A program made the position numbers and the translations under genes. A model generated the notes under the pieces. That model made no database searches and was not told the origin of the DNA. It saw only the letters and a program-made list of their open reading frames with translations. A DNA stretch of 64,000 nt from Calditrichales bacterium MX18-03 (GTDB lineage Bacteria > Bacillota > Clostridia > Lutisporales > Lutisporaceae), in contig JAJGRE010000001.1 of NCBI GenBank assembly GCA_021083345.1, positions 310,001 to 374,000 on the forward strand, written 5' to 3'. Position 1 is the first letter of the stretch, and every line of letters starts with the position of its first letter. Shown one piece after another: positions 37,633 through 61,553 of this stretch.

Positions 37633-38736
37633 TTAATAAATGTCGCCTTGTGCGATGAAGAAACATCCTTCATTTTGCAGGATAATGCCCTTTAACTCCA
37701 TTATCGTCAGGCAAGACATCACCCTTCCGGCAGGCAGTCCGGTGTCCTGAATGATGGCATCTATGCTTCTGCCGTGCTGCTGCATGCAGCATAGGATCAG
37801 GCCTTCCTCTGCCGTTAAACCTGTTTCTTCATTATTTATAATATACTTATCACGGGATAATATAAGCGGAATATTTAGCTCCTCCAATATGTCCTCCAGA
37901 CAATCCACCAGCTTGGCACCGTTTTTTATCAACCAATGGGTCCCCTTGCTGCCTGGTGAATGGATATTTCCGGGTATGGCAAAGACCTCCCGGCCCTGCT
38001 CCAATGCAAAATCTGAAGTGATCAGGGAGCCGCTTTTCTGCCCGGCCTCCACCACCAGAACGCCCAGGGAAAGCCCGCTGATGATCCTGTTCCTGGCAGG
38101 AAAATACGCCGGCCGTGCTTCGACCTCAAATGGATATTCCGAAACCAGTGCCCCGTGCTTCAGGATTTCACAACTCAGGTTATAATGGTTTTTCGGATAG
38201 ATATTGCCCAGGCCGCAGCCCAATACCGCAATGGTTCTGCCCCGCCCCTTCAAAGCACCTCTATGGGCAGCGGAATCGATTCCCAAGGCCATACCGCTGA
38301 CGACCGTGACACCGTTCTCCGCCAGCATGCTGCCAAATTTTTCTGCCGTTCTCATTCCGTAGTCACTGCCTTTTCTGGAGCCGACAACGGCAACAGCGCT
38401 CTTGTCCGCCTCGGTTAAGCTGCCTTTGACATACAGGATGCAGGGCGGGTCGTAAATATTTTTAAGGTTCTCCGGATATGCTTCATCGTTTATAGTATAA
38501 ACCTTTATACTTTTTTCTTTCATTTTAATAAGATAACGGTTAACCATTTCGATATCTCTGCATGTCAACAATCTATCAATGATTTTTTTCTCCAGCAGTC
38601 CGCAGGCTTCAAGCTCTCGGCCAGTGCTTTGATAAACCGCTTCAGCCGTGCCATAGTATTGCACCAGGCTTGCAATGGTCCTGTTTCCGACGCCTGTTAT
38701 GCCTGAAAGCCACAGCCAGTATTTCAGATCCTTCAT
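37633..38736 (-). CDS. dprA: DNA processing protein DprA/Smf
   Basis: DprA loads RecA on incoming single-stranded DNA during transformation. The 367-residue protein has the Rossmann fold motifs VVGSRKGSDYGMRTAEKFG, SGMALGIDSAAHRGALKG and GCGLGNIYPKNH. It ends in a small winged-helix domain. ATG 38736 has AAGGAG 8 nt upstream. A terminator-like hairpin stands just before the SD. Competence in this organism is not shown by its presence, since dprA is widespread. Confidence 0.95.
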   Translation of the reverse strand: MKDLKYWLWLSGITGVGNRTIASLVQYYGTAEAVYQSTGRELEACGLLEKKIIDRLLTCRDIEMVNRYLIKMKEKSIKVYTINDEAYPENLKNIYDPPCILYVKGSLTEADKSAVAVVGSRKGSDYGMRTAEKFGSMLAENGVTVVSGMALGIDSAAHRGALKGRGRTIAVLGCGLGNIYPKNHYNLSCEILKHGALVSEYPFEVEARPAYFPARNRIISGLSLGVLVVEAGQKSGSLITSDFALEQGREVFAIPGNIHSPGSKGTHWLIKNGAKLVDCLEDILEELNIPLILSRDKYIINNEETGLTAEEGLILCCMQQHGRSIDAIIQDTGLPAGRVMSCLTIMELKGIILQNEGCFFIAQGDIY

Positions 38737-38760
38737 TTTATCTACTCCTTGCATTCATTT

Positions 38761-38799
38761 ATAATAATAAAAGCAAAAGGCTCTGAAAAAGCTTTTTGC
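38761..38799 (-). terminator. Terminator-like hairpin before dprA
   Basis: On the minus strand a 10-bp stem (GCAAAAAGCT / AGCCTTTTGC with one G-U pair) and a 7-base loop are followed by TTTTATTATTAT. It lies about 12 bp upstream of the dprA SD. It may end comM transcription or act as an attenuator for dprA. Confidence 0.5.
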
Positions 38800-38840
38800 T
38801 TTAAAGCTGTTTGAAAGAAATCGATACAATTTCGTTACAA

Positions 38841-38896
38841 TTATCATCAAATTGTCATATTCTCATAACGGTTCTGTAACATATCTTTGCTATAAT
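38841..38896 (+). promoter_or_regulatory. Candidate PhoB-type promoter (11-bp repeats plus extended -10)
   Basis: Four 7-base units separated by 4-base spacers: TTATCAT (38841), TTGTCAT (38852), TCATAAC (38863) and CTGTAAC (38874). They resemble the Pho box unit CTGTCAT at 11-bp phase. The last unit ends 10 bp before TATAAT (38891-38896), which is preceded by TG (extended -10). There is no -35 box, as expected for a PhoB-activated promoter. No coding sequence follows on this strand. Confidence 0.5.
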
Positions 38897-38902
38897 AAAA
38901 AC

Positions 38903-38980
38903 ATAGATTTTTACAAAAGTATCAATTAATCTTCCCCCTCCTATTATAGCCGGCAGCATTGCTGCCGGTTTTACTTTTTT
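38903..38980 (+). ncRNA. Candidate small RNA with C-rich anti-SD motif
   Basis: From the inferred start near 38903 to the terminator the transcript is about 78 nt. It has no open reading frame with an SD. An unpaired CTTCCCCCTCCT (38931-38942) is complementary to Shine-Dalgarno sequences. The end is an intrinsic terminator: CCGGCAGC / GCTGCCGG (38950-38968), then TTTTACTTTTTT. Promoter, C-rich loop and terminator in close order are the layout of C-rich Firmicutes riboregulators such as RsaE/RoxS. Expression is not shown. Confidence 0.5.
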
Positions 38981-39054
38981 GAATTAACTGCCCGCACCAA
39001 TATTTGCGATTTGCGAATCGATTCTTAAACTCGGAAATGGTGCCTGGGCTTCAA

Positions 39055-40587
39055 TTAAAAACCGTATTTCCTGTCGAGGCTCCTATGCTGGATCGCTTCT
39101 GCAATATGCTCGGCACCGATGGCAGCAGAACCGCTCATATCGGCAATGGTCCTTGCTACCTTCAAAATCCGGTTGTACGCTCTGGCACTCAGGTTGAACC
39201 TTTCGAAAGCATGCCTCAGAAGCTCCTTTTCCTGCCTGCCGATGCTGCAGAATTTTGACATTTGCCTGACCTTCAGCTGAGAGTTGAAAAAAATTCCTTC
39301 TTTTCGGTACCGTTCCAGCTGAATGCTCCTGGCTTTGTTGACGCGCTGGCGTATCGCGGCAGAGCTCTCAGCAGTCTTACTTTCTGAGATATCGCTGAAC
39401 TTGACCGGTGATACCTCAATATGCAGATCGATCCTGTCCATCAGGGGGCCGGATATCTTTCCGATATAGTTTTTGACCTGCATGGGCGTACAGGTGCATT
39501 TCCCGGATTCATCCCCGAAAAAGCCGCAGGGACAAGGATTGATCGATGATATCAGGATGAATTTCGCCGGATAGGTAATGGTACCGCTGACCCGCGATAT
39601 GGTGACGCTCTCATCCTCCAGGGGCTGCCGCAGAACCTCCAGTACATTTTTCTGAAACTCCGGCATTTCATCGAGAAAAAGCACCCCGTAGTGGGACAAG
39701 GATACCTCGCCGGGATGCGGAATCCTGCCGCCTCCAATCAGGGCTGCCTGGGACATGGTGTGGTGGGGGGAGCGGAAAGGCCGCTTGGTGATCAACGCGT
39801 GCCGGTCCTTCAACAGCCCGGCGACGCTGTATATCTTCGTAACCTCCAGGCTTTCCTCAAAGGCCATGTCAGGCAGGATGGATGGAAGGCAGCGAGCCAG
39901 CATCGTTTTACCGGACCCCGGCGGTCCAATCATCACGACATTATGTCCGCCAGCCGCTGCGATTTCCAATGCCCGTTTGACCGTCTCCTGCCCCTTGACG
40001 TCAGCAAAATCGAAATCCTCATTATGTGGATTGGTAGGCAGCTTGTCCGGCTCAGCGGCATAAGGCAGTATCTCCAGCTTTCCATTCAGGTAGTTTACCA
40101 TTTCCTTGATATCGCTGACAGCGATAACCTTCAGCCCTTTTATCAACGCCGCTTCGTCTGCGTTTTCAGTCGAAACCACTGCAGTCGTGCTGCCTCCTTT
40201 TAAGAGCTCCAGGCACATGGGCAGCACCCCTCTGATTCCTTTTATGCTGCCGTCCAGTGACAGCTCTCCGAGAAAAGCCGTTTCGTCCAGCCTGTCGTTT
40301 TCTATATACATCCCGGCCTTCAGGATTCCGGCGGCAATGGCAAGGTCAAAAACCGAACCTTCCTTTTTAATATTGGCCGGCGCCAGGTTCACCGTGATCC
40401 TTTTCTGCGGAAAAAGAAAGTCGGAGTTCTTAATGGCAGCACGCACCCTTTCCCTGGACTCCTTTACAGCGGCATCGGGCAGCCCTACGATGTCAAAGCC
40501 CGGAAGCCCGTTGGACAGGTCGATTTCGACATTGACGATGCAGCCTTCCATTCCATTCAGCGTGCAGGTTTTTGTTCTGCTTATCAT
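39055..40587 (-). CDS. comM: YifB/ComM-family AAA+ ATPase (Mg-chelatase-like)
   Basis: ComM is a helicase that promotes branch migration during DNA uptake in some species. The 510-residue protein has an N-terminal Lon-like fold (MISRTKTCTLNGMEGCIVNV, then GLPDAAVKESRERVRAAI). The AAA+ core has Walker A GPPGSGKTMLARCLPSIL and Walker B GVLFLDEMPEF. A C-terminal Mg_chelatase_C domain contains the pattern LSARAYNRILKVARTIAD. ATG 40587 has GGAGTG 6 nt upstream. The Cys-rich loop NPCPCGFFGDESGKCTC is present. Confidence 0.93.
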   Translation of the reverse strand: MISRTKTCTLNGMEGCIVNVEIDLSNGLPGFDIVGLPDAAVKESRERVRAAIKNSDFLFPQKRITVNLAPANIKKEGSVFDLAIAAGILKAGMYIENDRLDETAFLGELSLDGSIKGIRGVLPMCLELLKGGSTTAVVSTENADEAALIKGLKVIAVSDIKEMVNYLNGKLEILPYAAEPDKLPTNPHNEDFDFADVKGQETVKRALEIAAAGGHNVVMIGPPGSGKTMLARCLPSILPDMAFEESLEVTKIYSVAGLLKDRHALITKRPFRSPHHTMSQAALIGGGRIPHPGEVSLSHYGVLFLDEMPEFQKNVLEVLRQPLEDESVTISRVSGTITYPAKFILISSINPCPCGFFGDESGKCTCTPMQVKNYIGKISGPLMDRIDLHIEVSPVKFSDISESKTAESSAAIRQRVNKARSIQLERYRKEGIFFNSQLKVRQMSKFCSIGRQEKELLRHAFERFNLSARAYNRILKVARTIADMSGSAAIGAEHIAEAIQHRSLDRKYGF

Positions 40588-40786
40588 GCAATCCACTCCA
40601 AAACGTTTTATTTATACTATTCTACATGGCATCGCATAATCCTCCATAATTTACCATTTATTTCTACATATTTCCATTTTGTGTCTAGTTCATACTTTTT
40701 TAGTTTAAATGGCTTACCTCGAATGGCTTAAATGAAAATCGAAATTCCGTTTTGGAAAATTGGCGGAACTTAGTCTTTCATCAATT

Positions 40787-41200: not shown

Positions 41201-41775
41201 AAATTCAAGTTTATTCATGAAAATCGCTTCATATTTCGGATTGCAAAGATGTGTAAGGCCTTACAAGTATCAAGAAGCGGTTATTATGCTTTCGCTTCCA
41301 GGGGTGAGAGCAACCGAACCAAGGAAAATCGTGAGCTTCTAATAACCATCAAAGAGATACATGAGAAGAGCCATAGGATCTATGGTGCACCTCAAATAAC
41401 GAAGAATCTACCTGCTGACCAATAGGCAAGCAGGGGACACGTCGCCAGACTCATGAAGGCAGATGGAATCAGATAAAAAGTAACAAGGAAATACAAGGCA
41501 ACAACAAACTCTAAGCATAATCTGCCAGTAGCAGAGAACATATTAAATCAAAACTTTAAAGCAGACAAGCCCAGTGAAAAATGGGTCTCAGATATAACAT
41601 ACATACCAACAAAAGAAGGCTGGCTATACCTAGCAGGAGTAATGGACTTATATGGTAAATCGTCACAGAACACATTCTACAAATGATTATGCACTTCCAT
41701 TTTTAATGGATAGAGTTGCATAGCTATTTTGAGAAAATCAAAGGAAATCTGGGATTCTTGCTGTCTACTTTATTA
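41201..41775 (+). pseudogene. IS3-family OrfB (DDE transposase), truncated remnant
   Basis: The OrfB frame shows MCKALQVSRSGYYAFASRG and two in-frame stops near 41425 and 41475. The rve core start [20 protein letters not shown] and GVMDLYG supply the first two catalytic Asp residues. The sequence then jumps to the C-terminal EKIKGNLGFL-type motif near 41731. The segment with the catalytic Glu is deleted, so no transposase can be made. Confidence 0.85.
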
Positions 41776-60371: not shown

Positions 60372-61553
60372 TTAGAATGTAATGTAATCAGCCCACAGCA
60401 AGTAGAAGTTTTCCTGTGTTACGTCCTTGCCGTCCTTATCCTTTGTTGTGTAGTTGGTGAATCTGATGTTAGCGCCGTTGGAAACTTCTGCATAGGCTTT
60501 CTTCAAAGCTTCAGGATCGTTCTTGCCTGTCAGTTTGCCTTCAGCATATAACTTTCCATACTCAACCAATGCTGCTGTTGAAAGCATTGAGATCGGGAAA
60601 GGCCATGTTGAGAATCTGCCGGTGCCGCCTGCTGCTGCAAGCTTTGTCTTGATTTCGCCAAGCATGAATTCTGAGTCGCCGGCTTTTTCCGGAGGAATGG
60701 AGATACCCAGTGCTCCAGGATAGCCATGGAACGGGCTCGGGCAGCACTGCTGTGCTACGATGGCGCCCTGTGCGAGAGCTGTCTTCAACAGGGGTTCCTG
60801 CATACCGCAGTTTGTGCTGAAGAAGTTGGTGTCTTTGCCGTACTCGGCAACTTTTCTCGGAATATCTTCGCTGATGAACTGCTGTGCGCCGGGCAGACCA
60901 GCATCCCCTGTTGGGTCTGGAGCTGTAGCGTCAACAAACTTTATACCAAGCTTTGCGCATTCAGTCTTAAATACTTCTCTTCTCTGAGCAAGAAGCGGAT
61001 AAGACATATGTCTCGGGAAGGAGTAGTGAACAAATACCTTTGCGCCCAATGCTGCAGCCTGCTTCGGGATTTCATAGCCCATAGCGGCGTCATCGGCCTG
61101 CAGGACAACGTCAGCCTTTTCAGCAATGATGTCTGTTTCTGCCGGCTGGTAGGAGCAAATCAGTACGTCCGGTCTTGCTGCTCTAACTTTGTCAAAAGCT
61201 GCAGCTGCGCCAGGAACGGACTGGTTCATGATCAGGACCTTAACTTCCGGATCGGATACCAATGCAAGTGCGTTGGAGATCAATGTTTCCTGCTCTTTTG
61301 TGAAGTTGTCCGGATAAGTCTGTGTTACAACGATGTCCGGATACTTCTTCTGAGCCTGTTCAGCTGATCTGAACTCTTCCTCGTTCTGTGAAACTGTGGA
61401 AGTGTAAACAGCGATCTTGTACTTCGGAGCTTCTGCTGCAGCAGGAGCCTGCTCAGTTGTTGCTGCCGGAGCTGCCGGTTCTGCGGGCTTTGCGCAGCCT
61501 ACGAGACCGAAGACCATGACAAAGGCCAATACCAGTGCTAATACCTTTTTCAA
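60372..61553 (-). CDS. DUF3798 solute-binding lipoprotein
   Basis: The 393-residue protein has a lipoprotein signal (lipobox LVGC, Cys20) and an Ala/Pro-rich linker. A two-lobed periplasmic-binding fold follows. DUF3798 marks are FVHYSFPRHMSYPLLAQRRE, FVDATAPDPTGDAGLPGAQQ, STNCGMQEPLLKTAL and QQCCPSPFHGYPGALGI. The ligand is unknown. I use TTG 61553 (GGAGGGG 5-6 nt upstream) instead of ATG 61568. It is the first transporter gene after the two-component system. Confidence 0.88.
   Translation of the reverse strand: MKKVLALVLAFVMVFGLVGCAKPAEPAAPAATTEQAPAAAEAPKYKIAVYTSTVSQNEEEFRSAEQAQKKYPDIVVTQTYPDNFTKEQETLISNALALVSDPEVKVLIMNQSVPGAAAAFDKVRAARPDVLICSYQPAETDIIAEKADVVLQADDAAMGYEIPKQAAALGAKVFVHYSFPRHMSYPLLAQRREVFKTECAKLGIKFVDATAPDPTGDAGLPGAQQFISEDIPRKVAEYGKDTNFFSTNCGMQEPLLKTALAQGAIVAQQCCPSPFHGYPGALGISIPPEKAGDSEFMLGEIKTKLAAAGGTGRFSTWPFPISMLSTAALVEYGKLYAEGKLTGKNDPEALKKAYAEVSNGANIRFTNYTTKDKDGKDVTQENFYLLWADYITF

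Follow-up and report, generated by a model that had tools for sequence, protein, structure and literature searches.

A predicted C-rich small RNA gene with a phased, response-regulator-type promoter between dprA and yifB in a Clostridia lineage

In the 64,000-nucleotide stretch of DNA analysed here (the window), a 300 bp interval separates dprA (minus strand, 37633-38754) from a yifB/comM-like gene (minus strand, 39055-40596), raising the question of whether this interval encodes a regulatory RNA and, if so, which signal would activate it and on which mRNAs it would act. The original prediction had placed here a plus-strand small RNA (sRNA), made in phosphate starvation and oriented opposite to all of its neighbours. 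This orientation is as described, since dprA, yifB, topA, trmFO, hslV and hslU are all encoded on the minus strand, and no plus-strand gene lies downstream of the terminator. Likewise, the four 7+4 repeats, the extended -10, approximately 78 nt devoid of an ORF, the open C-rich stretch and the terminator were all located where they had been predicted, and the parts of the putative gene are as follows:

38823..38839, plus strand: upstream phased half-site pair GATACA-N5-GTTACA (GATACA at 38823-38828, GTTACA at 38834-38839), read from the sequence, kept in the sister genus and lying outside the coordinates of the original prediction
38841..38881, plus strand: main 11-bp-phased array, based on the sequence, the sister-genus alignment and the pst-matrix score; in the 7-mer frame TTATCAT (38841-38847), TTGTCAT (38852-38858), TCATAAC (38863-38869) and CTGTAAC (38874-38880)
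38888..38896, plus strand: extended -10 TGCTATAAT, with TATAAT at 38891-38896; TGnTATAAT is found in all six genomes
38903..38980, plus strand: predicted sRNA of approximately 78 nt, based on the fold and a covariance model
38931..38942, plus strand: C-rich anti-Shine-Dalgarno (anti-SD) stretch CTTCCCCCTCCT, unpaired in the predicted fold
38945..38980, plus strand: intrinsic terminator, with its stem at 38948-38970 and a T-rich tail

A repeat search of the window returned the upstream pair as an 11-nt direct repeat at 11-nt spacing, while in the main array 10 bp separate CTGTAAC from TGCTATAAT. No -35-like hexamer was seen on inspection of the plus-strand promoter at this locus. The start at 38903 was placed by counting 7 nt after the -10, and 34 nt lie between TGCTATAAT and CTTCCCCCTCCT, the latter being without a second exact copy in the window. 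The predicted RNA folds with a z-score of about -4.2 to -4.7 relative to shuffled sequences, and the C-rich stretch is single-stranded in both the MFE and the centroid structure of the 78-nt RNA. The terminator stem comprises 10 pairs, is G+C-rich and directional, and is followed by a U-run solely on its plus-strand side. The ORF list of the window contains no frame of 50 aa or more on the RNA, and no frame within it is conserved across the alignment of homologues.

Three further elements were observed nearby. An inverted repeat (AAAGCAAAAGGCT / AGCTTTTTGCTTT) occupies positions 38770-38802, just ahead of dprA, while a dispersed intergenic element of approximately 60-80 bp (38977-39054) separates the sRNA terminator from the end of yifB; at least six copies of the latter are present in the genome (the others at L002-L006), these being 68-90% identical, with a middle block of approximately 15 bp absent from three of them. 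Additionally, a short frame at 41249-41425 was judged by eye to resemble how the second transposase frame of an IS3-type element begins (MCKALQVSRSGYYAF...) and appears to be a remnant.

A DNA search of 22 genomes of the order identified homologues in five genomes of the sister genus, with 68-74% identity over the promoter and the RNA. Conservation among related Clostridia, on which the original prediction had staked itself, was thereby borne out, as the sister-genus alignment retains the repeats, TGnTATAAT, the C-rich stretch and the terminator; CTTCCCCCTCCT is identical in four of the five genomes and reads CTTTCCCCTCCT in the fifth. The element is flanked by dprA and yifB at the sister-genus loci inspected, with a DUF1232 gene between the sRNA and yifB in one relative. 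A covariance model, a search that had also been proposed at the outset, recovers all six genomes with E values of 9e-17 to 1.5e-23 (1e-19 to 1e-23 for those of the sister genus), five of these six strong homologues being from one genus. One pair of the terminator stem is changed on both sides among the homologues, although this covariation is weak because only six sequences are available. Beyond the six genomes the model yielded no convincing copy, neither when 391 genomes of the class were scanned nor in a search of the order with laxer filters; the weak matches L038-L041 and those inspected from the laxer search lack the C-rich stretch and were taken as chance, and three BLAST matches (L021-L023) were set aside as short, partial and without a promoter. 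A collection of plasmids yielded no match. A weaker copy, GATAGTTTCCCCTCCATCTTCAACCGGCAGCTGCCGG, was detected at the dprA locus of a third genus (genome G009; E 0.002 when 37 kb were searched without filters), where the C-rich stretch reads TTTCCCCTCC. The dprA loci inspected in other genera show either a rearrangement of dprA and yifB or an intervening gap without the element. Counts of single motifs are at chance level (8 near-matches to the C-rich word versus 7.2 expected), and it is the ordered combination, together with its retention across two genera (six genomes), that exceeds chance on the sequences compared. The same-locus copies in the sister genus, the weaker third-genus copy and the lack of a convincing copy elsewhere thus argue that the predicted sRNA gene is real and lineage-restricted.

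The reading that we favour, and which we consider likely, is that of a free-standing, response-regulator-activated sRNA gene whose C-rich stretch lowers the translation of mRNAs with G-rich SD sequences. A phosphorylated response regulator of the OmpR/PhoB family would bind the 11-bp-phased half-sites and substitute for the missing -35 contact at the extended -10; an RNA of approximately 78 nt would be transcribed up to the intrinsic terminator, and its single-stranded CUUCCCCCUCCU would then pair with G-rich SD sequences of the GGAGGGG type, thereby lowering translation. From the parts, their order and spacing, their co-conservation, the open C-rich stretch and the lack of a conserved ORF, which can be read directly from the sequences, we infer transcription, activation, pairing and repression. 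The stand-alone intergenic unit with its own predicted promoter and terminator, and the conserved SD-complementary stretch left unpaired in the predicted fold and retained in the alignment, are those of the anti-SD (C-rich) sRNA class, while the phased boxes, the last of them 9 nt ahead of a -10 without -35, reproduce the layout of the Pho regulon.

The closest known counterparts in plan are the CiaRH-controlled csRNAs of Streptococcus (PMC3091779, PMC4507080), which are intergenic and short (51-202 nt), possess an intrinsic terminator and carry an unpaired SD-complementary stretch; their promoters consist of a hexamer-N5-hexamer repeat of the OmpR-family type placed ten bases before TATAAT, with the start seven bases on (PMC3091779). 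Sixteen predicted csRNAs have a terminator hairpin alone, as does the sRNA described here. However, the csRNA repeat word is TTTAAG, in contrast to GTTACA/ATAACA/GTAACA here, csRNAs occur in two to six copies per genome as opposed to a single copy, and they are also complementary to AUG, a complementarity that was not seen in this sRNA. Membership of the csRNA family was consequently rejected on account of the absence of TTTAAG-N5-TTTAAG repeats. RoxS/RsaE of Bacilli and Staphylococci is likewise C-rich, controlled by a two-component system (ResDE) and pairs with SD sequences (PMC8216469), but it differs in its repeats and lacks a sequence match (Rfam), and RoxS is additionally under the control of Rex. 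The C-rich regions of FsrA and CsfG of B. subtilis and of IsrR of S. aureus pair with ribosome-binding regions (PMC8216469, PMC11257911), although these RNAs are controlled by Fur or sporulation sigma factors and are unrelated in sequence (Rfam search). The likeness to RoxS, FsrA and CsfG is one of presumed function (PMC8216469). No family of Rfam 15 reaches its gathering cut-off, the best being MicF, whose 32.1 bits fall far short of its cut-off of 79 and probably reflect the terminator. Furthermore, no paper describing an anti-SD sRNA of Clostridia under Pho or WalR control was found in a literature search of incomplete coverage.

To compare the promoter with a local Pho standard, pstS loci were gathered from the family and a pst matrix was derived from 60 boxes in 15 upstream regions. 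All 15 pst promoters (of the PhoP/PhoB-activated type, without a -35) follow one plan, with hexamers at 11-bp steps and the last box, TTAACA in 14 of them, exactly 9 nt before the -10. The sRNA promoter is identical in phase and in its 9-nt gap; in this frame its main array reads ATCATC/GTCATA/ATAACG/GTAACA. The words themselves differ, as the pst boxes are TTAACA/TTTATW and begin with T in 91% of cases, whereas the sRNA boxes (GTTACA/ATAACA/GTAACA) begin with G or A. On the pst matrix the pst promoters score 13.5-31. The sister-genus sRNA promoters reach 11-14.5, with p <= 6.5e-5 when the null is AT-rich, and the third-genus copy reaches 6.1, its p of 2.6e-4 applying to a single selected site. 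The promoter in the window, whose boxes are degenerate, scores 0.9 (p 1.4e-3). By these p values the array is unlikely to be random; the own-genome boxes do not discriminate between PhoP and other regulators. When whole genomes were searched for the triple-box promoter pattern, the sRNA promoter alone matched it perfectly in both G005 and G006.

Two further box arrays were encountered in this work. A strong Pho-type array (L253, G000:C7:1290955-1290997, minus strand, matrix score 19.2) lies 69 nt before an ORF named glgC (ADP-glucose pyrophosphorylase) by eye, and glycogen synthesis may therefore belong to the Pho regulon here. In addition, a TGTAAT-N5-TGTAAT-N10-TATAAT promoter is conserved in three genomes (L166, L171, L186) ahead of a short secreted protein that weakly matches Glucodextran_B.

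Activation by a regulator of the OmpR/PhoB family is thus probable from the promoter layout, and the member involved may be WalR-like or PhoP. The WalR/YycF consensus is TGTWAH-N5-TGTWAH, and pst sites are listed among the predicted YycF sites, so that the site types overlap (PMC5405149). The three main sister-genus boxes fit this consensus in reverse (DTWACA being TGTWAH backwards), and in the 1.6 Mb of G006 three DTWACA words at N5 occur perfectly at three places, as opposed to none in two shuffles: at the sRNA, upstream of a pstC-like gene (TTAACA three times) and at a secreted hydrolase with NlpC/P60 and PG_binding_1 domains (GTAACA/GTAACA/ATAACA), the last being the only companion of the sRNA besides pst. 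This hydrolase site (L327, G006:C23 near 591245) lies between the hydrolase gene and a divergent membrane-protein gene, after which a response-regulator gene is next. Cell-wall-like words thus stand together with Pho-like spacing. A WalR/YycF-like cell-wall regulator, which would place the RNA in an envelope-stress or growth regulon, is on these words a serious candidate that we hold at slightly under an even chance, as a single cell-wall promoter is available for comparison, its gap to the -10 is unlike that of the sRNA, and the window's own array fits only in part, the box proximal to the -10 being the only one of the main array to match perfectly. That PhoP/PhoB itself is the regulator, with the RNA belonging to the Pho regulon and produced when phosphate is scarce, is a tentative possibility: the genome carries a phoP-phoR-pst-phoU operon, phase and gap are those of the pst promoters, the sister-genus promoters score well on the pst matrix and the third-genus copy is preceded by TTCATG-N5-TTAACA-N9-TACATT, yet the first base of the sRNA boxes, the low score of the window's own promoter and the single chosen site behind the third-genus p value speak against it. 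The PhoP of G000 scores under both the YycF and the PhoB cut-offs. These weightings of the regulator are judgements rather than computed values. The phosphate control originally proposed thus finds only partial support: phase and gap agree with it, but the box words depart from TTAACA and resemble the WalR-type words that precede a cell-wall hydrolase gene in a relative, and the phosphate signal may be regarded as one of two good candidates.

As to its targets, the RNA had been predicted to block AGGAGGGG-type sites, including a GGAGGGG in the DUF3798 leader, and this motif is indeed present before a TTG start at 61553 (PF12683). There are 36 instances of AGGAGGGG followed by ATG at 4-9 nt in G000 and 25 in G006, whereas the reversed pattern gives 7 and 3, an excess expected of a strong SD. 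Among exact-match candidates, one clear orthologue with such a leader is common to both genomes, namely oraE (D-ornithine 4,5-aminomutase subunit; L133, L148), whose reading frame measures 501 aa compared to the 730 positions of the family model. The long complement TAGGAGGGGGAAG was discarded as a target signature since it did not exceed its control. Duplex energies over 1510 genes of G006 were just slightly better than those of shuffled RNA, and when ranks were combined over 308 orthologue pairs the top places were taken by nusA, an aminotransferase, an ABC transporter ATPase, DUF3798 (46th of 392 in G000 and fourth of 1510 in G006) and oraE. In the window's own genome the scans for targets and regulon members spanned 400 kb. 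A rank product as good as the best would be expected about 0.1 times by chance if ranks are taken as independent, and orthologues share SDs by descent; the two-genome ranking of these pairs singles out no target beyond chance, DUF3798 included. Target prediction with the C-rich loop, as originally envisaged, thus failed to nominate a gene; pairing with GGAGGGG-type sites is nevertheless plausible by sequence, but AGGAGGGG leaders are common, and the DUF3798 leader is one among many candidates. A broader version appears improbable to us: a csRNA-like system of Clostridia in which a response regulator of envelope or phosphate stress makes a single RNA whose core mimics the 16S anti-SD sequence, the translation of numerous strong-SD mRNAs, and not just of a handful, being damped simultaneously.

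The conserved signals could alternatively serve something other than an sRNA. The start of the divergent dprA is only approximately 70-90 bp off on the opposite strand, and the array might thus act on dprA with the plus-strand RNA being incidental; this is very unlikely, as the array is conserved jointly with the -10, C-rich stretch and terminator of the plus strand, and the gap from the boxes to the -10 is right for the plus strand. Even less credible is the notion that the conserved word is the ribosome-binding site of a short minus-strand gene (GGAGGGGG, which resembles an SD) or that the plus-strand RNA encodes a peptide (a 12-codon frame exists in one relative, L018), because the alignment contains no start codon or frame conserved on either strand across the homologues, and the U-run is confined to the plus-strand side of the stem; both of these readings were consequently dismissed. 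An sRNA gene thus remains the favoured reading; it is a known kind of gene, and the original prediction appears right on the object and plausibly right on its mode of action.

No described sRNA of the response-regulator-driven anti-SD type was found for this Clostridia lineage. If the present reading is true, this type, represented by the streptococcal CiaR-dependent RNAs and RoxS, would gain a counterpart in Clostridia (probably Lutisporaceae, as Lutispora saccharofermentans is among the genomes of the family, its locus L052 equalling L042), and phosphate or cell-wall stress would be tied to post-transcriptional control in that lineage. The relatives with perfect boxes render the question of the regulator directly testable.
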